From: Scytonematopsis contorta HA4267-MV1
Lineage (GTDB): Bacteria > Cyanobacteriota > Cyanobacteriia > Cyanobacteriales > Nostocaceae
Assembly (NCBI GenBank): GCA_019359035.1
Contig: JAHHIC010000066.1
Coordinates: forward strand, 62,001 to 126,000
Reading direction: 5' to 3'
DNA length: 64,000 nt
Positions within the stretch are counted from its first letter, which is position 1. Each line of letters opens with the position of its first letter. Made by a program: the position numbers and the translations under genes. Shown piece by piece: positions 8,513 through 61,480 of this stretch. A model generated the notes under the pieces. That model saw only the letters and a list, made by a program, of their open reading frames with translations, was not told where the DNA came from and ran no database searches.

Positions 8513-9322
8513 ATGAGAAAACAAGGCATAATTTATTTTTTGATAAGCTGCTCTCTAGTAATAATATTTAGCCACTCCCAAGTTAAAGCGGCTGATTTTA
8601 CACCAGAAATATCTAACCCACAAATATCTAACCCACAAATATCTAACCCACAAACACCCGACTTACAACTCCCAGATTTACAACTTCCAAACTTAGAAAA
8701 TCCAGACTTACAATTACCAAAGCCAGAAACTCCAAACCTACAAATCCCCGACCAACAGCAATGTGCAGGATTACCAACAAGTTTTAACCACTATCCATAT
8801 CAAGAAGCATCAAGCAGTCAATTAGTACTAATAGGAAACAAGCAAAAACTCCATATGCAAGCAGCACAAGCCTTCGGAGAAATGCAAAAAGCAGCGAGAA
8901 GTTCAGGAGTTATCTTAAAACCAGTTTCAGGATTTCGCTCTAGAAGTCAGCAACAATATTTATTTTATGGCGTCGCTAAACAACGAAAGCAAACTTTAGC
9001 ACAAAGAGCAAAAGTAAGCGCTCCCCCTGGTCATAGCCAACATCACACAGGATACGCAATAGATATTAATTCGTTGAAGCAATCATTCGCTAAGACAAAA
9101 GAATTTGCTTGGCTACAAAGGAATGCAGAAACATATGGTTTCCAAATGTCATTTCCGCCAAATAATCCTCAAGGAATTATGTATGAACCTTGGCATTGGG
9201 CATGGCATGGTAGTGAAGAAGCAAAAACAGCTCTACACTCAGCTTGTAAAGACGCGATTAATAGCGTCTCTACTATTAACAAAACGGGGTGGCCGACAAA
9301 TCAGCTACCCCGTCACCAATAA
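8513..9322 (+). CDS. M15 family D-alanyl-D-alanine carboxypeptidase (VanY-like), exported
   Basis: 269 residues. Signal peptide or membrane anchor at 1-26 (IIYFLISCSLVIIFS), then a low-complexity linker of repeated NPQIS and DLQLP units (about 32-82), then a VanY/M15B domain (about 90-245). The zinc site is intact: S175-x-H177-xx-G180-x-A182-x-D184, then E225-P-W-H228. It should trim the terminal D-Ala of peptidoglycan stem peptides in the periplasm. ATG at 8513. Bases 9246-9273 inside the gene are a copy of the dispersed 28-bp palindrome and encode CKDAINSVST near the C-terminus. A decayed partial copy lies at 7219-7413. Confidence 0.88.
   Translation: MRKQGIIYFLISCSLVIIFSHSQVKAADFTPEISNPQISNPQISNPQTPDLQLPDLQLPNLENPDLQLPKPETPNLQIPDQQQCAGLPTSFNHYPYQEASSSQLVLIGNKQKLHMQAAQAFGEMQKAARSSGVILKPVSGFRSRSQQQYLFYGVAKQRKQTLAQRAKVSAPPGHSQHHTGYAIDINSLKQSFAKTKEFAWLQRNAETYGFQMSFPPNNPQGIMYEPWHWAWHGSEEAKTALHSACKDAINSVSTINKTGWPTNQLPRHQ
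9246..9273. repeat. 28-bp palindrome copy inside the M15 coding sequence
   Basis: The near-palindrome GTAAAGACGCGATT / AATAGCGTCTCTAC is the same family as the intergenic copies at 27484, 33213 and 40336. It is in frame and adds about ten residues after the zinc domain. Confidence 0.8.
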
Positions 9323-22091: not shown

Positions 22092-22111
22092 GCTAGTCGT
22101 TCCTGCACATG

Positions 22112-22321
22112 AAACCCCACCCCCAACCCCCTCCCCGTACACGGGGAGGGGGCTACGATAATAAGTACATCAAAATAGTTAATTACAGATACTTCAAGCC
22201 CGGATACAGTTAATTACCGATAGCTTGAAAAATGCCATTTAAAAAATACAATTTGAAAAATGCGAGCATCAAATCGTAGCCCCCTCCTCGCGTGCGGGGA
22301 GGGGGTTGGGGGTGGGGTTCT
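22112..22321. mobile_element. MITE-like element with GC-rich terminal inverted repeats, copy B
   Basis: The left arm, 22112-22158 (AAACCCCACCCCCAACCCCC, then a CTCCCCGTACACGGGGAG hairpin and CTACGA), is mirrored at 22274-22321. The interior is AT-rich and includes 'aaaatagttaatt'. It lies between two convergent genes and could also terminate both. Confidence 0.6.
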
Positions 22322-22358
22322 TTTGCGCTTGGGAGTGGTTTTTTGGGGTGAGTTTTTT

Positions 22359-26225: not shown

Positions 26226-27218
26226 TTACCTAGCTACTCCTAATAATTTATTCGCTATGGTGTGGGGAGCAAAACTAACTGTCAAGGCTGTAAGAGTTCG
26301 CAAATTAAATTTTTGTTCGCTCAGTGCTTGCCAAAGATATGGACGTGCTTGTGCAGTTTGTTCGTTTCGCAGCAAACCAATACCTAAGGTTGTATTGGCT
26401 TCTAACCATTTTTCTTTAAAGTGGGGTTTCCATTGCTTGAGACGTTCATCTTCCATAAATTTGTGGTAGCAAAATATTTCACTTTTAGCTTTGCGGATTT
26501 TTGCCTCAACATTACGACTACCGCTTTGCATTGTATCAGTTTGAGGATGTTCGCGATATCTGGTTAATTTATCGGGACAATAGTAAGCTCCACCACCTGT
26601 GATAGAACATAAATAAGTTAAAAATAAATCCCACATACCACCAACTTCTTGCGGCATTTTATCCCAATATTCAGGATTATTTCTAATTACCGCTGCACAA
26701 GCAGTTCCTATCGATTTATTTACTAACCCGATTTCATAAAAAGGCTTATGTTCCCCAGGAGTATATTGGTCACGTTTATAAGCCTGTGTATTTATTTGAG
26801 TTGCGTCATTATCGATTTGACTTTGGGGATTTATAATGTAATGGTCACAAAAAGCTAAAACCAAATCGGAATTTTCTTCTAAAGGTGGAACAAGCTTTTC
26901 TAAAAAATTCTCGTTCCAAATATCATCATCATGTAAGCTCGCTACATATTTACCACGCGCCATTTTAAAAGCGTGCATCTGATTGATAAACATGCCCATA
27001 TTTTGCGGCTGCTTCCAATACCGAATTCGTGGGTCGGTGAAGGATGCAACAATCTCTTCTGTATTATCTGTACTACAATTATCAGAGACAATTATTTCAA
27101 TATTTTTATAAGTTTGTTTAACCGCACTTGCCAAAGCTTCTGTGAGATACTCTACCCGATTATAGGTGGGAGTAATAACACTGACTAAAGGCTGCTGATA
27201 TTCCTGATTTTGTAACAT
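26226..27218 (-). CDS. GT2 family glycosyltransferase
   Basis: 330 residues, GT-A fold. 'VSVITPTYNRVEYLTEALAS' and 'ASLHDDDIWNENFLEKL' (DDD metal site near 97-99) are typical. The middle has 'NPEYWDKMPQEVGGMWDLFL', in the acceptor-binding place. Probably adds one sugar of the heterocyst polysaccharide repeat. It is separated from the GT4 gene at 24884 by 130 bases of GAACGAAG-type repeats and has a 700-base repeat-rich leader. Confidence 0.86.
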   Translation of the reverse strand: MLQNQEYQQPLVSVITPTYNRVEYLTEALASAVKQTYKNIEIIVSDNCSTDNTEEIVASFTDPRIRYWKQPQNMGMFINQMHAFKMARGKYVASLHDDDIWNENFLEKLVPPLEENSDLVLAFCDHYIINPQSQIDNDATQINTQAYKRDQYTPGEHKPFYEIGLVNKSIGTACAAVIRNNPEYWDKMPQEVGGMWDLFLTYLCSITGGGAYYCPDKLTRYREHPQTDTMQSGSRNVEAKIRKAKSEIFCYHKFMEDERLKQWKPHFKEKWLEANTTLGIGLLRNEQTAQARPYLWQALSEQKFNLRTLTALTVSFAPHTIANKLLGVAR

Positions 27219-27483
27219 TTTTAAATTAATCTATTGATTTTTACGTAAAATAACACCCAATTTTTTGACTCTAGCTCTTAAATCCCTCTCCCCTAAAAGC
27301 CAGATTTAGGGTCAGGACTTAATTTGCTATTGTTATATTATGCTTTCAACTAGTTGACAAGAATATATTGATATTGTTTTTTCATCAATTTTTTGCATAT
27401 ATTTTACAGAAAATTTAATTATCAAATGGCCAAGAGTCAAAAGTAGAGCTATGTAAAAATTAAGTATACGCACAAAAAAACAC

Positions 27484-27708
27484 GTAGAGACGCGATATAT
27501 CGCGTCTTTACAGAGGTAATAGGTAGAGACGCGATTAATCGCGTCTTTACAGAGGTAATAGGTAGAGACGCGATTAATCGCGTCTTTACAGAGGGTAATA
27601 GGTAGAGACGCGATTAATCGCGTCTTTACAGAGGGTAATAGGTAGAGACGCGATTAATCGCGTCTTTACAGAAGTAATAGGTAGAGACGCGATTAATCGC
27701 GTCTCTAC
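27484..27708. repeat. Tandem array of six 28-bp palindromes
   Basis: Six copies of the GTAGAGACGCGATT palindrome start at 27484, 27523, 27562, 27602, 27642 and 27681. Copies 1-5 end GTCTTTAC and are separated by 11-12-base spacers (AGAGGTAATAG type); copy 6 is perfect. The unit is 39-40 bp. The array lies between the GT2 gene at 26226 and the terminator at 27770. The rest of 27219-27920 is AT-rich. Confidence 0.95.
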
Positions 27709-27769
27709 AATGTTTATGTCATTTTTTTAGTTTTTACTTTATCTTGACATTAAAAATAATATTTATTAG

Positions 27770-27800
27770 AAAAAAAACCCGGTTCTATAATAGACCGGGT
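27770..27800 (-). terminator. Rho-independent terminator of the 27921 gene
   Basis: Read on the minus strand: ACCCGGTCTAT, a short loop, ATAGAACCGGGT, then eight T. The stem is GC-rich at the base with one bulge. It is 120 bases after the stop of the GT4 gene, so it likely ends the hepA-side transcript and separates it from the downstream GT genes. Confidence 0.8.
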
Positions 27801-27920
27801 GACTGACAGCAAAGATGAAAGTCTGAAAATATTTTTAATTAAAAAAATAAGTTTTTAATTCCGATAGAATTAATTTTGATAATATCAATTATAACCTATT
27901 TTCTATAATAATTGATATTT

Positions 27921-29150
27921 TTATTTATTATTTATTCTATGGAAACTATCGATAGTTTGTTCATAGATTATTTCTAACTTTTTGACATGAGCATCCATAG
28001 TAAATTCTTGCGTCAAAAAATTATGACCTTTCTCACCCATCAATTTACTTTTATGAAAATTGGAGTGTAATTCATTTATGGCATCAGCTAGTTGTTTAAT
28101 ATGGTTGCCTGCTACAAGAATACCTGTTTCACCATCGCGTACATGTTCAGGGATTCCACCAACTGCGCTTGCGATTACAGGACGATAACGAGCATAGGCT
28201 TCCAAGGTTATTAAACCAGCAGGCTCCGGCCAAACACTGGGGAAAATAACAGCAAAGCACTGCTCATAAAGTTTATTCATTTTATCAGTATCACACCAAC
28301 CGTGCCAAACAATACGGTTAGTTAATCCCAATTCGTTAGCCAATTTTTCTAGACGGGGTTTGTCCCAACCCTCTCCAGCTATATCAAGTTGAACATGCTT
28401 ATCCACCTGCAATAAAGTTTTCAACAACCATTCTAAACCTTTATCTGGTACAATTCTCCCAGCAAATAAAATTCTATTATTATTGTGTACTTCTTGGGTG
28501 AGAGGTGCTGCTTTTGTTCGGGTTGCTAAGGTTCCGTAGCGCAGGGTTACGGTTTTCTCGGCTGGTATGCCATGTTTCATTAACTGTTGCCGTACATATT
28601 CACTATTAGCAATGACGGTGATTGGTATTGATTTTAAAGTTTGTTGTAGAAAATAAGCACCTGATAATTCGTTATATACTCGTACTGGTCGGCGACTACC
28701 ACAGCCATCTACAGCTTTACCCCAAATACATCCGAAAACAGAGTAACTACGCTCGCAAATTTTATTTTGTGCTGATAAATACTGTGTTCCACTGGGACAA
28801 TAAATTGAGTGATTATGTACAGTGAAGATTGCTGGACATTCTCCTTTTAACTGTAGAAGTATTTCTGGACTGTGGACGTGGAGTAACTTAAATTGTCTTT
28901 GGTCAATATTATTAAGCGATTTAATTACTTGAGAACTGACACCCTGTTGTCCGTGGCTCAGTAATGAAGCTACATAAGTTTCAATTCCTCCACCACTTAG
29001 ACCTAACTCAGAGCAGTGGTATACCGATTCTTTGTCAAATATTTCTGAAAAAGAAACTATTTCTGAAGATTTTTTTACCGTGATTGATTCTGGATTACTT
29101 ACAGATAAATTTCGACTTGACTGTGATTGTGGGTTTTCAGTATTTAACAT
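27921..29150 (-). CDS. GT4 family glycosyltransferase (HEP island)
   Basis: 409 residues. The first ~45 residues are polar and Ser-rich. The acceptor domain includes 'YHCSELGLSGGGIETYVASL' and a Cys-containing insert, 'CPSGTQYLSAQNKICERSYS' and 'GCIWGKAVDGCGSRRPVRVY', seen in a subgroup of GT4 enzymes near hepA. Donor-domain motifs are 'ILFAGRIVPDKGLEWLL' and 'EPAGLITLEAYARYRPVIAS'. It follows hepA by 136 bases on the same strand, a gap filled by inverted AATTAGTAATT repeats. Role: extension of the envelope polysaccharide unit, by context. Confidence 0.86.
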   Translation of the reverse strand: MLNTENPQSQSSRNLSVSNPESITVKKSSEIVSFSEIFDKESVYHCSELGLSGGGIETYVASLLSHGQQGVSSQVIKSLNNIDQRQFKLLHVHSPEILLQLKGECPAIFTVHNHSIYCPSGTQYLSAQNKICERSYSVFGCIWGKAVDGCGSRRPVRVYNELSGAYFLQQTLKSIPITVIANSEYVRQQLMKHGIPAEKTVTLRYGTLATRTKAAPLTQEVHNNNRILFAGRIVPDKGLEWLLKTLLQVDKHVQLDIAGEGWDKPRLEKLANELGLTNRIVWHGWCDTDKMNKLYEQCFAVIFPSVWPEPAGLITLEAYARYRPVIASAVGGIPEHVRDGETGILVAGNHIKQLADAINELHSNFHKSKLMGEKGHNFLTQEFTMDAHVKKLEIIYEQTIDSFHRINNK

Positions 29151-29157
29151 AATTAAG

Positions 29158-29290
29158 TCAGTAATTAATAATTAGTAATTCGTAATTAATAATTGTAAAT
29201 CAGAATGTTCACTACCTTACTTTTCACTCTGTAGGAGTACAAGTCCGGTGGCAACAAATGACGAATTACTAATTACTAATTACGAATTAT
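29158..29290. repeat. Inverted AATTAGTAATTCG-type arrays between hepA and the GT4 gene
   Basis: The 7-mer-like tract 'aattaataattagtaattcg' near 29160 is matched by its complement near 29265-29290 (attactaattactaattacg). They bracket about 70 bases and abut the hepA stop codon. Confidence 0.65.
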
Positions 29291-31146
29291 GTTGTTCCAA
29301 CCTGATGTTGCATTTGATGATATTTCCAGAGCGCACCCTCTTGCTCTAGTAGTTCTTGATAATTACCTTGTTCGATAACTCTTCCTGCTTCTAAAACTAC
29401 GACTTTGTCGGCTTTAGCTATGGTAGAAAGACGGTGAGCGATGGCAATTACAGTTCTACCTACAGACAATTTTTCGATGGATTCCTGAATTAATCTTTCC
29501 GATACCGAATCCAATGCACTAGTTGCTTCATCCAAAATCAAAATTTCTGGGTCACGCAACAACGCACGAGCTATGGCAATCCTTTGCCTTTGTCCTCCAG
29601 ATAACCGTACCCCACGGTCACCTAAAACAGTATCAAAGCCTTCAGGCATTTCCTCAACAAAGTTTAGCGCATTTGCCAGTCGAGCGGCTTCTCGAATTTC
29701 TGCTTCGCTTGCATTTGTGGAGCCGTAAGCAATATTATTCCAAACTGAAGTGTTGAAAATAAAGGTATCCTGACTAACGATAGCCATTTTCTGACGCAAC
29801 GAGTTCATATCAAACTCGCGAACATTAATGCCATCAATCAAAAGATGACCATCGGTGACATCGTAAAAACGAGGAATCAAATCTACCAAAGTTGATTTAC
29901 CTGCACCTGACTGTCCAACTAAGGCTGTTGTTTTACCTCGCTCAATGCTGAGGGTCACATTTTCTAATACTAAATTCTTGGGTTCGTAGCCAAAATCGAC
30001 TGAGACCAGTTGGATAGAGCGATTTAAACCGTAAAATTTCTTAGTCCCGTTTGTGGGATAATGCTTATCGTCAGTACTCACGAGCTTCTTAATATTTTCA
30101 GCCGCTCCATACAAGGTGCTGAGATAAGCTCTGGTACCGTTGATGTCCTGCATCATGGGCACAACGCGAAACAGAACAAAGAAATATGTCAGCAAACTAG
30201 CAACTTGTAAGTTTCCGCTAGCAGAAAAAATAGTAAACGACAAAGCCAGCATACTAATAAGAACCGTAGAGGCTAACCCTTGTGCCAAAGGTCTCACCAT
30301 ATTCCAAATTAATGAGACTTTAGCGGCAGAATTAAGCAGTTCATTAGCGGCTTTGTAAAAGCGTTTACGCTCAAAGTCTTGAGTTGTAAATGCTTGGACG
30401 GTACGAATTCCGTTGATAAATTCTATTGCAACTGAGGTAAAATTAGCATTTGCGGTGGAAACGTTAAAGCTTCCTTCTCTTGTTCGTGCGTTTAAAGTTG
30501 ACAAACCCACTGCTAAAAGCGCGAACAGCATAAATGAAATAATAGTCAATTGCCAAGAGAGCGTAAACATCCAGGAAAAGTAAACAACTGTTGTCAACCC
30601 TCTGGTAAACAAGAAAGAAACACCACTAAACCACTGCTTGAGTTTTTCTATTTCCGTAGTAATTGTGTTTAGTAGCTCTCCCGAACGACTTTTCGCAAAA
30701 AAGCTCAGTGGTAAAGACTGGAGTTGCTCAAAAATTCGCTTTTGTAATCGGTCTGCAAGATTTAGTTGAACAAGTTCTGTGTTGACAGAACCGAAATAAT
30801 TAAAACCAGCAGTAACCCAAATGCTTAATAAAATTAATATACACACTCGGTAAAGGCGATTAATTACCGATGCATTTACCCCTAAAAACAAAATATCGAA
30901 CCATTCAATACCCGTGTGAACAGGAGCAGCATTGGGGGTAGTTAAATTTTGTAAAAAAGATAGCAAAAATCCAATAGTTATGCCTTCAAAAATAGAAGCA
31001 AAAGATGAAAAAACGAAAGCTAGTACAGCATATTTTTTAAATTTTTTAATTTCTTGCAATATCAAATAATTATCTTGCCAAAACCCTGTACCTTTAAAAA
31101 ATTGTTTTAGCAGATGCGAAATTTCTTTATTACGTTTAAGAAGCAT
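29287..31146 (-). CDS. hepA: HepA-type ABC exporter for heterocyst envelope polysaccharide
   Basis: 619 residues, a half-size exporter: six-helix membrane domain (about 40-345) then an ATPase domain. The ATPase has Walker A VGQSGAGKST (near 405-412), Q-loop 'AIVSQDTFIFN', signature LSGGQRQ (near 514), Walker B 'ILILDEATSALD' and H-loop 'AIAHRLST', all intact. In Anabaena PCC 7120 hepA (alr2835) is needed to lay down the heterocyst polysaccharide, and mutants cannot fix nitrogen in air. The identity with HepA rests on family resemblance plus its neighbour hepC and the surrounding sugar genes. It should flip or export a lipid-linked or free polysaccharide unit. It has a 380-base leader, fitting its own nitrogen-stress promoter. 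Confidence 0.88.
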   Translation of the reverse strand: MLLKRNKEISHLLKQFFKGTGFWQDNYLILQEIKKFKKYAVLAFVFSSFASIFEGITIGFLLSFLQNLTTPNAAPVHTGIEWFDILFLGVNASVINRLYRVCILILLSIWVTAGFNYFGSVNTELVQLNLADRLQKRIFEQLQSLPLSFFAKSRSGELLNTITTEIEKLKQWFSGVSFLFTRGLTTVVYFSWMFTLSWQLTIISFMLFALLAVGLSTLNARTREGSFNVSTANANFTSVAIEFINGIRTVQAFTTQDFERKRFYKAANELLNSAAKVSLIWNMVRPLAQGLASTVLISMLALSFTIFSASGNLQVASLLTYFFVLFRVVPMMQDINGTRAYLSTLYGAAENIKKLVSTDDKHYPTNGTKKFYGLNRSIQLVSVDFGYEPKNLVLENVTLSIERGKTTALVGQSGAGKSTLVDLIPRFYDVTDGHLLIDGINVREFDMNSLRQKMAIVSQDTFIFNTSVWNNIAYGSTNASEAEIREAARLANALNFVEEMPEGFDTVLGDRGVRLSGGQRQRIAIARALLRDPEILILDEATSALDSVSERLIQESIEKLSVGRTVIAIAHRLSTIAKADKVVVLEAGRVIEQGNYQELLEQEGALWKYHQMQHQVGTT

Positions 31147-31526: not shown

Positions 31527-32336
31527 TTACAAGGTTTGGCTATCTAGATGTAGCAAGCTAGGTTCGGTTTCTACTTGCCAAGAACCCATAACTCCTGGGA
31601 GCTTGTTGAGCTGTCGTTGTGCTTCTGAGCTTAGAGTTAAAGATTCTTCTAAGCTCCAGCAACGAGAACCTGTTAAACTCATCTCACCTCGAATAACATT
31701 CCATAAGGAAGGAAGGTTATGCAAACCATACTTACGTATCCAATGTCCTGAGTCTATAATATTTTCCTCAGAGGATACCTCACTTGGCCCTGTAGTAAAT
31801 GTATCGTTAACGACATTGCTTGTGCGGAATTTGAGAACCCGAAAAACTTTACCACGTTCCCCGACATGCCACTGATGAACAAAGATTGGCTTATCTGAAG
31901 TGAGACGCAGTAGAAATGCTAAGGTCAGCATCAAGGGACTCAACAAAAAGAAAAGAACAATTGCCGCTAACCACTCAGTTAACCGTTTCAGGTAGTAAAA
32001 AAGTGGAACACCAATTTTTTGGTTTTTGTTAGCTGAAGGTATGCGTAAAAACATTGGCTTTGAAGCTGCTTCACAAGCATCAGCCCAAAGTAAAAGTTTA
32101 GCAGTTCCTAACTTTGGGTCAACACGCACTCTTGTCGCTTGTGTTTTTTTTAAACACTCTGTTAAAGATTGTTTTTGCTCCAGTAAAGGCATCAGCGGCT
32201 GTTGTTGTAACCCAGGGAGCAAAACTAAAAGCTGCCCTCTTCGCCAATGTAGAGTGCAGTATGAAGACCGAGATTCTTGGTTTGGCTCTTTAGCTGTATG
32301 GCTTTTCTCTAAATTTGGAATTATTGATGTAGTCAT
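31527..32336 (-). CDS. hepC: HepC-like phosphosugar transferase, catalytic pair replaced
   Basis: 269 residues. The N-terminal ~100 residues are a family-specific soluble part; one membrane helix follows (LAAIVLFFLLSPLMLTLAFL, about 126-145), then the short polyprenyl-phosphate hexose-1-phosphate transferase domain. Landmarks are 'VFRVLKFRTSN' and 'LPSLWNVIRGEMSLTGSR'. In catalytically proven relatives (PglC/WbaP type) the segment before LPQ is DE; here it is H-N (GLHNLPS, near 204), and the PRP end is SRC. HepC of Anabaena (alr2834) is required for the same envelope layer. It would start the unit on undecaprenyl phosphate if active. Confidence 0.82.
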   Translation of the reverse strand: MTTSIIPNLEKSHTAKEPNQESRSSYCTLHWRRGQLLVLLPGLQQQPLMPLLEQKQSLTECLKKTQATRVRVDPKLGTAKLLLWADACEAASKPMFLRIPSANKNQKIGVPLFYYLKRLTEWLAAIVLFFLLSPLMLTLAFLLRLTSDKPIFVHQWHVGERGKVFRVLKFRTSNVVNDTFTTGPSEVSSEENIIDSGHWIRKYGLHNLPSLWNVIRGEMSLTGSRCWSLEESLTLSSEAQRQLNKLPGVMGSWQVETEPSLLHLDSQTL

Positions 32337-33310
32337 ATTTATTTCATTCTAATACAGTGGCTGATTACCGCTTTGATATAAAAAGGTTCACTTTCGACTT
32401 TTAATATTTTTATCTAATACCAAAAGAAGAGTGAAATTCATAAGAAATAACATCGAATTTGTAACAATGAAGCTGATGCAATAAAATCCAAGAAAGCTTA
32501 GGAAATATATTGTATTTTTCTATCGTTAAAGGCTATCTATATAATAGAATATAAGAATCTTCGGCAATAGCACCTATTTCGGCAGATTCTTTATTCACTC
32601 TTTAAATAGCCAGCGCCATTTTTCGTACTTTGTTAAGTTCTGATGAATTTTCCTTAGAGTGTTAGTACGCAGAACCTTTATCTAATAGTACTCATCAATA
32701 ATCATAACTTACCTAAGTTTTACAATTATTAAAAGCTAAATTAACTATAAATACGGAAAATAAAAGTTTGACTCTCAAGAAAATTTGTTTGAAATAGTTT
32801 GGAAATGTAAGGTATTTCCTTGCCAAAGCTTTTGGGCAATATTACTATATAACAATTCTTCTTCATGTATATAAAGGTGGCTCTTACTCCCGTATTATCC
32901 CTGAAGAAAGTAAAAAGTAAATAAGTTCTATTTACTACCTGTTAAAATTTACAACTTGTCATAAAATAATCAGTCGCATCTGTCACCAACCTACATAAAA
33001 ACTATAAGTTAGAGCGAAAAATAAGTAAAGGAATGGCAATATTTTTCATTGACTTTACTGTACTTAGTTGCTAAAGCTATATCACTTAGAACAATATTGA
33101 TACGTAGAAATAGCTCTAAACTTGTTATATTATTTCACATGTCGCTTGCACAATTTAATGCTAGCGTAAGAAAAATTTAATTTTCTGTTTTCTTGCTAAC
33201 CCAGTAAAAAATGTAGAGACGCGATTAATCGCGTCTCTACTGATTAATCGCGTCTCTACTGATTAATCGCGTCTCTACTGTACGTAAGACCAAAGGATAT
33301 CACGATGGGG
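32337..33310. other. 974-bp region between the wzc-like gene and hepC
   Basis: AT-rich, no coding frame. At 33213-33278 lies one perfect 28-bp palindrome followed by two extra 19-bp half units (tgattaatcgcgtctctac). The remainder shows nothing recognisable but is where the hepC promoter must be. Confidence 0.5.
33213..33278. repeat. 28-bp palindrome plus two duplicated half units
   Basis: A perfect palindrome (arm GTAGAGACGCGATT) at 33213-33240, then the 19-mer TGATTAATCGCGTCTCTAC twice (33241-33259, 33260-33278), a stepwise amplification of one arm. Confidence 0.95.
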
Positions 33311-37607: not shown

Positions 37608-38648
37608 GATGACATAATAGGTATATTTAGTAGATTTAGTCCCAGTATGAAATTGTTAATTATTTATCGTTTAGAATGGAAAATTCAAGGTTTAATAGAT
37701 ACAAAAGTAGCTCAGTTAATCAGATAATTTTATGAACAAATATAAATAGACATTATTAATGTAACTATTTAAATATTATTGGGGAGTGGGGAGTGGGGAA
37801 TGGGAGGTGGGGAGTGGGAGGTGTGGAACATTTTTCATGGGGTACGTACAATTTTTCAACGTCTTGGAGAATTACTGACAAAAACTTACATCTGTGTAAA
37901 GTAATTATGAAATTAAATCATTTTCATCATTTTTTTTAAAGCTTGGATAAAGTTTCTTAAAAGCACATTGTTGTTTTGCCAACAATATTAGTATTAATAA
38001 CTAAAATTTTCTACAGTTTAAATGTTTTTTATCATAAGCTTTACATATTTAATCGCTATTATGTAGGAATGAACAATAATTAGGTTTACGTAGGTAATTC
38101 TACAAACCTAAAAGTCCTGTCAAAAGCAGTGTTTTCAATGGCTTGGGAAGAATGACTGGAATTCTTTATGAATTATTAATAATATGACGGCAAGACTACT
38201 TAGATGATAACGCCACAGCAGACGTGATATATATAACACTGACATTGCGGAGCTTCGATTCAGTTTCAAAAGCATGGTATTACAGGATACAGGGAAGCAG
38301 GTTTTTAAGTTTTTGCCTAAGTCCTCACTAGTATTTGTGCAGATGGCAATATGAAAAATTCATTTATAACATAACCTACTTTATGAAGATTCAGTAAAAA
38401 TAACTAAGAAGAAACATGTGGAGACGCGATTTATCGCGTCTCCACGTATCAAAGACGCGATAAATCAAAGACGCCATAAATCAAAGACGCGATAAATCAA
38501 AGACGCCATAAATCAAAGACGCGATAAATCAAAGACGCCATAAATCAAAGATAAATCAAAGACGCGATAAATCAAAGACGCGATAAATCGCGTCTCTACG
38601 TATCGAAGACGCGATTTATCGAAGACGCGCTTTATAGCGTGGTTTTTT
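37608..38648. other. 1041-bp repeat-bearing intergenic region
   Basis: No gene. GGGGAGT 7-mers at about 37781-37822, AT-rich sequence to about 38400, then the palindrome-derived array 38418-38640. The array begins immediately after the 3' end of the dehydrogenase gene (38649). Confidence 0.7.
38418..38636. repeat. Palindrome with a 16-bp tandem expansion
   Basis: A palindrome, GTGGAGACGCGATT / TATCGCGTCTCCAC type, at 38418-38445, then about nine 16-mers AAAGACGCGATAAATC alternating with AAAGACGCCATAAATC, one truncated, closing with a palindrome arm (GATAAATCGCGTCTCTAC) near 38580-38600 and more fragments. It is built entirely from one palindrome arm. Confidence 0.92.
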
Positions 38649-40245: not shown

Positions 40246-40363
40246 GGACAGGTTCACAGGTATGGACAGGTTCACAGGTATGGACAGGTTCACAGGTATG
40301 GACAGGTTCACAGGTATGGACAGGTTCACAGGTATGTAGAGACGCGATTAATCGCGTCTCTAC
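40246..40363. repeat. Five 18-bp tandem units abutting a 28-bp palindrome
   Basis: In the gap 39963-40379: GGACAGGTTCACAGGTAT five times (40246-40335), directly followed by the perfect GTAGAGACGCGATT palindrome at 40336-40363. The rest of the gap is AT-rich. Confidence 0.95.
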
Positions 40364-45152: not shown

Positions 45153-45279
45153 AATTGGGAATTGGGAATTGGGAATTGGGAATTGGGAATTGGGAATTGA
45201 GAATTGCTCTTTGCGAATTGCTCTTTACCCATTACCCATTACCCATTACCCATTACCCATTACCCATTACCCATTACCA
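45153..45279. repeat. TTGGGAA and CCATTAC heptamer arrays
   Basis: TTGGGAA units at about 45153-45206 and CCATTAC units at 45227-45279, joined by a TTGCTCTT motif. The arrays fill the gap between the C-methyltransferase and SDR genes and end two bases before the SDR stop codon. Confidence 0.93.
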
Positions 45280-45280
45280 A

Positions 45281-46312
45281 TCACCCTTTCTTTGCCCAGA
45301 AGAAATCTTTATCTATTTGCTGAGTACGAATGAGATATTCCAGCTGTTTGAGACGAGTAAAACCACGAGCCTGAAACACATCTTCGGTCATATCAATTTG
45401 ACTAAACACATCATACAGTTGTTTAGCACCACGTTCAGCGTTCCAATCTGACTTAAAGCCAGGTAATAAGGTATTTATTTTCTCGAAAGATACCTTGTAG
45501 CTGCGATTATCTGAACCTTGCTCACCAAAGCTTAGCTTACAGCCAGGAAAGACCTCTGCAACAATCTCAGCAATTTCTTTGACGCGATAGTTATTAGCTG
45601 TGTCCCCAACATTGAATATTTGGTTGTGAACAATGTCGCGAGGTGCTTCCAAAGCGCAAACGATTGCTTTGCAAATATCCAAAGCATGAACTAAAGGACG
45701 CCAAGGAGAACCATCGCTGGTCATTTTAATTTCTTTGGTTGTCCAAGCTAACCCAGCTAAGTTATTTAATACAATATCGAAACGCATCCGAGGAGAAGCT
45801 CCGAAAGCTGTCGCGTTCCGCATAAAAGTAGGAGAAAAATCGTCATCCGCTAGGGGGGTAACATCTCTTTCTACAAATGTTTTACATTCCGCATAGGCTG
45901 TTTGGGGGTTCACAGGTGTTTTTTCTGTAACCTCACCATCGGTTGCAACACCATAAACACTGCACGAAGACATATAAACAAATCGACGAACTCCTGCTTC
46001 TTTTGCCAGTTTGGCAAGACGTAGCGAGCCTTTATGATTAATATCGTATGTAATATTAGGTGAAAGTTGTCCAGTTGGGTCGTTAGAAAGTTCCGCCATG
46101 TGAACAATTGCTTCGATACCTTGCAAATCTTCCACAGTAATGTTGCGGATATCTTTGTTTAGGGTTTTAGCAGTAAAGTCCGTGCCGTTGTACAACCAAC
46201 CCACTTTATAAAAACCTGTATCAACACCGGTAACTTCATGTCCCCGTTCTAATAATAGAGGAGGTAATAACGAACCTAAATACCCTTCTGTTCCAGTTAC
46301 CAATACTTTCAT
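45281..46312 (-). CDS. NAD-dependent epimerase/dehydratase (extended SDR)
   Basis: 343 residues. The NAD loop is GTEGYLGS (7-14), the catalytic pair Y140-A-E-C-K144, with Ser near 116 in 'MSSCSVYG'. Later motifs 'RNATAFGASPRMRFDIVLNN' and 'NVGDTANNYRVKEIAEIV' fit nucleotide-sugar SDRs. It could be a 4-reductase, epimerase or dehydratase for the CDP-sugar made by RfbF. The 12-base gap to the LhgO-like gene upstream shows one transcript. Confidence 0.86.
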   Translation of the reverse strand: MKVLVTGTEGYLGSLLPPLLLERGHEVTGVDTGFYKVGWLYNGTDFTAKTLNKDIRNITVEDLQGIEAIVHMAELSNDPTGQLSPNITYDINHKGSLRLAKLAKEAGVRRFVYMSSCSVYGVATDGEVTEKTPVNPQTAYAECKTFVERDVTPLADDDFSPTFMRNATAFGASPRMRFDIVLNNLAGLAWTTKEIKMTSDGSPWRPLVHALDICKAIVCALEAPRDIVHNQIFNVGDTANNYRVKEIAEIVAEVFPGCKLSFGEQGSDNRSYKVSFEKINTLLPGFKSDWNAERGAKQLYDVFSQIDMTEDVFQARGFTRLKQLEYLIRTQQIDKDFFWAKKG

Positions 46313-49092: not shown

Positions 49093-49431
49093 GAAACCCC
49101 ACCCCCAACCCTCGAAGAAAACCCACCCCCAACGGTGACTCCCCGTTAACGGGGAGGGGGCTACGACAAAATCATAAGAATAGAGCACAGAATACAGAAC
49201 ATAGAACATAGAACTATAGAACAAAAATAGTTGATTTATCATTGCAGTAATATGTCGTCAAAGGCTTACATACAGCATTTTGCAGATAAATGAGGTACGC
49301 CAACTAAAGACTAAAACTCTTGTGGGGTGGGCATCCTTGCCCGCCCGATTGTACTTAGCTAACTTGAAATCCGTTGTATATATAGTCGTAGCCCCCTCCC
49401 CGCGTGCGGGGAGGGGGTTGGGGGTAGGGTT
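49093..49431. mobile_element. MITE-like element with GC-rich terminal inverted repeats, copy C
   Basis: The left arm, 49093-49166 (AAACCCCACCCCC, partly duplicated, then a CTCCCCGTTAACGGGGAG hairpin and CTACGA), is inverted at 49384-49431. The interior contains 'aaaatagttgattt' as in copy D, a run of ACAGAAC-like words (49185-49222), and a nested GGGTGGGCATCC hairpin at about 49322-49350. It lies just after the kinase 3' end. Confidence 0.6.
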
Positions 49432-49468
49432 TCTTTAGGAGTAGGTTTCTTTGGGAGTAGGGTTTAAT

Positions 49469-55321: not shown

Positions 55322-55411
55322 GTAGAGACGCGATTTATCGCGTCTAATATATCGCGTCTACCAAATTACAACATATTATTATTGTAAAGACGCGATATAT
55401 CGCGTCTTTAC
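55322..55411. repeat. Two 28-bp-palindrome family copies
   Basis: One copy at 55322-55361 has a duplicated inner half (GTAGAGACGCGATTTATCGCG then a second ATATATCGCGTCTAC); a second copy is a perfect palindrome with arm GTAAAGACGCGATA at 55384-55411. Both lie between two response-regulator genes. Confidence 0.9.
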
Positions 55412-61249: not shown

Positions 61250-61263
61250 CCTAACTCCAAAGA

Positions 61264-61416
61264 AAACCCCACCCCCAACCCCCTCCCCGCACGCGGGGAG
61301 GGGGCTACGAAAAAGAGTTAACACCTAGACAGAAATAGTTGATTTTTACTTTTCGCGAGTATGATGAATTGTAGCCCCCTCCTCGCTTGCGGGGAGGGGG
61401 TTGGGGGGTGGGGTTC
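61264..61416. mobile_element. MITE-like element with GC-rich terminal inverted repeats, copy D
   Basis: The smallest and cleanest copy. Left arm 61264-61310 (AAACCCCACCCCCAACCCCC, CTCCCCGCACGCGGGGAG hairpin, CTACGA); right arm 61371-61416 is its inverse. The 60-base interior contains 'gaaatagttgattttt', shared with copy C. It begins 15 bases after the pheT stop. Confidence 0.65.
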
Positions 61417-61480
61417 TCTTTGGGGTTGGGGGTGGGGTTCTCTTTGGGGTTGGGGGTGGGGTTCTCTTTGGGGTTGGGGG
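61410..61480. repeat. Three 24-bp tandem units derived from the element end
   Basis: GGGGTTCTCTTTGGGGTTGG and four more bases, repeated three times at 61410-61433, 61434-61457 and 61458-61480. It is an amplification of the right end of the preceding element. It reads open in frame with the YciI gene but is not thought to be coding. Confidence 0.9.

Follow-up and report, generated by a model that had tools for sequence, protein, structure and literature searches.

Background

The SDR elements of Nostoc punctiforme, reportedly described by Elhai et al. in 2008, are said to be tiny dispersed repeats of 21–27 nt that fall into eight families, show compensatory changes, sit in heptameric tandem repeats and nest in copies of themselves. 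Another set of comparable elements is found among the GTAG-tagged REPs. One of these, the GTAG-12 family, is given in PMC3733652 as occurring in filamentous cyanobacteria only, while the double-foot REPs, which go with RAYT transposases of subclass 2.4, are described in PMC6006769 as abundant in Cyanobacteria and Bacteroidetes. As to the upkeep of matching hairpin arms, their restoration by template switching is an established idea (PMC8794818), reported there for RNA genes.

The locus studied here is an array of six palindromes at 27484–27708 of the window, by which we mean the whole 64,000-nt stretch of DNA that was analysed. It shares with the SDRs the features of a covarying stem and an embedding in heptamer repeats, and the palindrome, at 28 nt, differs in length from their 21–27 nt. 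It also resembles the GTAG-tagged and double-foot REPs, as characterized in PMC3733652 and PMC6006769, in its GTAG end, a palindrome length within 20–40 nt, high copy number and a mostly extragenic, gene-downstream location. The double-foot type is further matched by a 5' GTAG with its complement CTAC at the 3' end and by a distribution over Cyanobacteria and Bacteroidota (PMC6006769). However, it departs from the GTAG-tagged REPs in that the GTAG pairs with CTAC and that no cognate RAYT was found in the searches reported below. A literature search with the letters of the palindrome returned no cyanobacterial title among the matches listed; we do not claim that it is unpublished. Our preferred reading, to which we assign a probability of roughly 0.75, is that the array arose by tandem amplification, in place, of a dispersed palindrome of REP/SDR-like type that belongs to Nostoc-family cyanobacteria.

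Results and discussion

Structure of the array

The six palindromes, of the form GTAGAGACGCGATTAATCGCGTCT[T/C]TAC, occupy 27484–27511, 27523–27550, 27562–27589, 27602–27629, 27642–27669 and 27681–27708 (none assigned to a strand), with start-to-start distances of 39, 39, 40, 40 and 39 nt and gaps of 11–12 nt between copies. Copies 2–5 have the same sequence; copy 1 differs by an ATATAT centre, and copy 6 is perfect, with a CTCTAC end. The five spacers, the first of which lies at 27512–27522, are only 1–2 bases apart from one another and have a heptamer-like make-up (GGTAATA GGTA). Tandem Repeats Finder (TRF) scored the array at 406–408 with a unit of 39 or 79, and 100 dinucleotide shuffles of the window yielded zero matches to either palindrome pattern. 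These results bear out the original prediction of six near-identical palindromes in a regular 39–40-bp array, the copy number being that of one assembly. The regular palindromic repeats recall a CRISPR; however, the spacers are short and near-identical instead of unrelated, and the earlier description of the array as CRISPR-like yet non-CRISPR therefore stands. The minus-strand RNA of the array has a predicted fold of -123.2 kcal/mol against a shuffle mean of -46.7 (z = -18.2), with a minimum free energy structure in which whole copies pair with each other rather than forming six separate hairpins. Both the sequence and the folding are thus in line with the hairpin or cruciform potential attributed to it. 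An Rfam search at gathering scores gave no match in the window.

Genomic setting

The array lies in a 702-nt gap between two minus-strand glycosyltransferase genes: a group 1 gene at 27921–29150, whose 3' end points toward the array, and a family 2 gene at 26226–27218, which starts beyond it. The products of 29287–31146 and 31527–32336 were identified as HepA (995.7 bits against an NCBI cut-off of 725) and HepC (282.4 bits against a cut-off of 140), confirming the proposed location within a HEP island. A Pfam scan of eight nearby proteins recovered four glycosyltransferases, HepA, HepC, a Wzz-like protein and one protein without a match. The array had also been placed just past a terminator, and a minus-strand terminator-like hairpin with a U run (27777–27800; -12.9 kcal/mol, z = -2.9) does lie between the upstream glycosyltransferase gene and the array in the direction of transcription. 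This hairpin came from a separate fold test and was missed by a simple terminator scan of 27200–27960, which returned 3 terminator-like sites against 0.2 in shuffles. Copy 6 gives such sites on both strands, where the T runs are poor. At its transcribed end (27474–27511, minus strand) the array is also terminator-like: there the hairpin of copy 1 (-15.1 kcal/mol), of which a sub-hairpin was flagged in the scan, is followed by GTG and seven T, which leaves the originally suggested transcription block conceivable.

The neighbouring gene at 27921 is matched in 104 of the 192 family genomes, counting the own genome. The array was found beside none of its best matches in 29 relatives (59–65% identical), one of which has a single palindrome with another centre about 1.1 kb downstream. 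An early search of named genomes using the neighbouring protein as query had found no relative. Given the dispersal of the element and the lack of the array at these 29 loci, a special role in the HEP island is unsupported. The idea of a HEP-specific regulatory array is weakened as a lead, and the array most probably plays no dedicated part in making heterocyst polysaccharide.

A dispersed palindrome family in the genome

The 22-nt core of the palindrome was detected at 457 places in the 10.66-Mb genome (at most 2 mismatches), compared with 0 for a reversed control. Within the window further copies lie near 9247, 33214, 38419, 38573, 40337, 55323, 55385 and 57340; neither these nor the hundreds of occurrences in the genome had been part of the original prediction. 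They include a perfect lone copy (40336–40363) and two copies 62 nt apart (55323–55411). Elsewhere a copy is accompanied by 19-nt repeats of its right half (33213–33280), and copies are combined with a 16-nt half-palindrome tandem array (38418–38635), none of these features being assigned to a strand. The half-palindrome arrays proper, at 38448–38589 (16-nt unit) and 33223–33280 (19-nt unit), look as if one arm had been copied repeatedly.

A sample of 0.86 Mb of the genome, consisting of the window and 40 stretches partly picked for known arrays, contains 99 family members, of which 52 are perfect across 13 pairs. Their centres vary on both arms; for example, pair 8 is C-G in 57 members, T-A in 27, G-C in 5, A-T in 4 and unpaired in 6. 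The members form 74 clusters, with 66 single, 3 double and 5 of 4 to 8 copies. Six of the 74 lie within ORFs and 6 at sample edges or unplaced, so that the element is a short, mostly extragenic, high-copy palindrome, as REPs are. The four clusters of at least 4 copies other than the window array have periods of 74–77, 62–63 and 83–84 nt, and their spacers are unlike those of the window array, for whose spacer no second place was found in the 0.86-Mb sample. In general, spacers are common to the copies of one array and different between arrays; the exception is formed by the sets at the end of contig C29 and the start of contig C30, which share one unit. These two are arrays of the palindrome with an 84-nt period, and may be one array split by assembly.

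Distribution and placement in relatives

The outer frame of the palindrome, TAGAGAC-N12-GTCTCTA with any 12-nt centre, was found in 187 of the 192 family genomes, among which there was no other member of the strain's own genus. Counts range from 0 to 517 per genome, with the highest in the own genome (517), as opposed to 0 to 2 per genome for a control pattern. The usual centre varies by genome; for instance, it is GTTCCATGGAAC in genus g53 among the matches listed. A plasmid collection gave a single weak match, in Nostoc sp. C057. Outside the cyanobacteria, the core was encountered in tandem in the isolate Flavobacterium cucumis and in two Bacteroidales MAGs (loci L285, L275 and L311), the MAGs being open to contamination.

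Placement relative to genes was counted in samples from five species using a crude gene finder, with clusters inside ORFs or at sample edges left out. Only 11 of 137 intergenic clusters lie in divergent gaps, against 26% expected from gap length, and 72 of the 91 clusters in co-directional gaps are closer to the upstream stop codon.

Scanning named genomes for two copies 8–38 nt apart drew in at least 115 stretches, mostly from Nostoc, Komarekiella and Tolypothrix among the matches listed, with three from Bacteroidota records, including that of F. cucumis. With both-strand duplicates removed, these at least 115 loci contain at least 147 pairs, at least 62 of them at a period of 39; an earlier count over 80 of the loci had given 104 pairs, some duplicates included, with 44 at that period. 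The spacers and flanks are heptamer-like, as in GGAGTTA, as is the spacer of the window array, and the self-identity of the flanks at a lag of 7 is 0.386, compared with 0.261 in random stretches. Long heptamer tandem repeats (TAATTGG, AATTGGG, TTACCCA) also occur in the window itself, at 1860–1977 and 45153–45286. In one Komarekiella genome, near-alike spacers (GTACAAGRGTCAAGAGTAG and near variants) are present at about 10 places with mostly different flanks. The recurrence of similar palindrome-spacer-palindrome composites in such differing surroundings suggests that composites may also move as units. A difference in copy number between species is seen at one site where genome G137 has a dimer, with palindromes 38 nt apart, and G145 a single copy, the flanks showing 16–17 differences in about 272 positions; G126 has one degenerate palindrome there, and either a gain or a loss of a copy may account for the difference between G137 and G145.

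Relationship to RAYT transposases

We detected six Y1_Tnp hits in the own genome, and the palindrome lies within 1.5 kb of none of them. Two RAYT-like genes, with YIRQNP motifs, are adjoined by other GTAG- or GTGG-tagged hairpins, while a C-rich palindrome lies at the start of a truncated YIHANP-type RAYT gene. In relatives, the palindrome of the array is present within 1.5 kb at 5 of the 30 loci with a YIHANP-type RAYT homologue, compared with 2 of 30 glycosyltransferase loci (one being the window array itself, hence 1 of 29 relatives) and 2 of 30 best Y1_Tnp loci, which are mostly IS200-like. We regard this as a weak excess and not as a REPtron. A motif scan for subclass 2.4 (NH[IFV]H, YIxNNP) recovered no gene in 3.8 Mb of sampled loci, overlaps counted. 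With no cognate RAYT among the six own hits, the relatives' loci or the 3.8 Mb scanned, the REPtron hypothesis was set aside. Nor does the palindrome have the GTAG unpaired at one end only, as in REPs, since in perfect copies it pairs with CTAC; the palindrome flanks none of the six own Y1_Tnp genes. The contexts compared contained no clean empty sites with target duplications; at one full/empty site, G029 against three species, 8 nt are left and there is no clear target duplication.

A second abundant palindrome family with a GTAG end, CCCCCTCCCC...GGGGAGGGGG, occupies 22103–22324, 49386–49442 and 61255–61419 of the window, and a copy of it also lies at the start of the truncated YIHANP-type RAYT gene elsewhere in the genome (L019). 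A REPtron-like arrangement is seen on contig C53 (L141, 2797–4020), where a RAYT-like gene is bordered on one side by nine GTAGTGCGAGCATCTTGCTCGC hairpins at a spacing of 62–68 nt and on the other by one more.

Concerted change of the two arms

Orthologous sites were compared among four species of one genus, with flanks at most 10% different and alignments with gaps inside the palindrome omitted. After one of 14 comparisons was dropped for not being a family member, 13 remained, from 8 sites; they are non-independent, and their source copies were picked for being palindromic. Of the 143 base pairs in these comparisons, 17 had changed on both sides and 13 on one. In the flanks of the same 13 rows, 1606 pseudo-pairs showed 5 two-sided and 133 one-sided changes, with 1 from Watson-Crick to Watson-Crick (all 14 rows: 1705 pseudo-pairs, of which 148 changed on one side and 5 on both, with 1 change from Watson-Crick to Watson-Crick). 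When changes were shuffled within the centre, the mean number of two-sided changes was 8.4, and 17 was never reached in 20000 shuffles. Paired change is present at 5 of the 8 sites and absent at 3. An earlier set of contexts had an indel in 48 of 88 cases, with 3 counted as gaps, and three of its 19 pairs are chance matches in coding DNA. The original suggestion of a recombination hot spot finds indirect support here, in the duplications, indels and concerted changes of both arms by which palindromes of this family differ from one related species to another.

At one site a pair is G-C in G137, half-changed (T/C) in G126 and T-A in G145, and at another three species have three different centres. 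The centre resulting at the former, GCTATTAATAGC, has one exact place in G145 and one in G075, and 0 in five other genomes searched. With a single place in G145 there is no identical donor in that genome, and gene conversion was accordingly rejected as the sole cause. The odd centre TGTACATTTACA, on the other hand, is shared by two G126 sites whose flanks differ, which leaves room for copying from one element to another. At sites of G126 compared with G137 and G145, we also noted that one species may have a different short repeat inserted close to the midpoint of the palindrome, in the hairpin loop, where another species has none.

Mismatches read in transcript sense (one copy per cluster) comprise 23 G-U, 21 A-C and 42 others in five species, and 14 G-U, 6 A-C and 19 others in the own genome alone. 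Selection on an RNA stem was rejected as the explanation of the arms, there being no clear overall G-U excess in the five species. As selection for RNA pairing would favour G-U, the lack of such an excess makes a DNA-level cause of the concerted change more likely, albeit on small numbers and with a leaning to G-U in the own genome alone. Template switching, as treated in PMC8794818, is similar in producing multi-base paired changes without the need of a G-U intermediate; it concerns RNA genes there, whereas the present case is a dispersed bacterial intergenic palindrome. We tentatively propose, at somewhat less than even odds, that this is a mobile palindrome whose arms are co-rewritten at fixed sites by a DNA-level process, either hairpin-templated correction or whole-hairpin exchange at the GTAG/CTAC feet.

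Origin of the array

Local tandem amplification could have begun when a palindrome lying within heptamer-type repeats was duplicated to give a palindrome-spacer-palindrome unit. This unit would then have been multiplied by slippage, template switching or unequal exchange, aided by hairpins in single-stranded DNA, and the same hairpin-templated copying would keep both arms matched. In view of the near-alike composites in one Komarekiella genome, a dimer or the array may instead move as a unit, which would speak against local amplification, as does the terminator-like transcribed end of the array. In a specific version of mobility, a RAYT (TnpA-REP) transposase would move the palindrome as a double-foot REP, and the array would be an enzyme-made REP cluster. 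The GTAG/CTAC ends fit the double-foot REPs of RAYT subclass 2.4 described in PMC6006769, the core is in tandem in F. cucumis and the two Bacteroidales MAGs, and at one orthologous site entire centres have been exchanged for others between unmoved flanks. Yet none of the six own Y1_Tnp hits has a copy within 1.5 kb and the two RAYT-like ones adjoin other REP-like hairpins; the 5 of 30 YIHANP-type loci stand against 1 of 29 and 2 of 30 in the comparison sets, and the YIxNNP motif was not found in the 3.8 Mb of sampled loci. We therefore consider enzymatic origin doubtful.

A selected RNA function, with the array acting as a transcript-end or mRNA-stabilising chain of hairpins and as insulation between the hepA-side unit and the gene that follows, would be consistent with the very stable fold, the excess of terminator-like sites over shuffles (one of them the transcribed array end with its seven T) and the gene-downstream placement of family members, which are rare in divergent gaps. 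Nevertheless, we hold it to be unlikely: a separate terminator-like hairpin is already present upstream of the array, none of the best matches of the neighbouring gene in 29 relatives has the array alongside, and G-U and A-C mismatches are nearly balanced in the five species, even if the own genome alone has 14 against 6. If the array does affect transcription, for instance by causing termination at its T-rich end, this would most likely be incidental. An array of candidate binding sites for a protein, for example a nucleoid protein or a regulator, could draw on the presence of the outer frame in 187 of 192 genomes, but is quite improbable in view of centres that vary freely while the arms mostly match, and of hundreds of dispersed sites with few in divergent gaps. 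Despite the family arrays at the ends of contigs C29 and C30, an assembly artefact is very improbable indeed, as the units differ in period (39 or 40 nt), copies 1 and 6 are distinguishable from the rest, and pairs of a similar kind turn up across many independent genomes.

Conclusion

The six palindromes form a genuine tandem array of an element of known kind, in an ordinary setting, and the evolution of the element's arms is what deserves pursuit. In this palindrome family, concerted arm evolution is measurable in a bacterial palindrome, with paired changes far above the flank controls, one half-changed intermediate and one centre that is single in its genome. How small repeats of this type keep their symmetry, and how they spread when no transposase is obvious, is a long-standing question that can now be tested by genome comparison. 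If arms are indeed co-rewritten at fixed sites, the palindrome would change in sequence more quickly than the DNA around it and yet remain an almost perfect palindrome, and arrays would be a by-product of this process.
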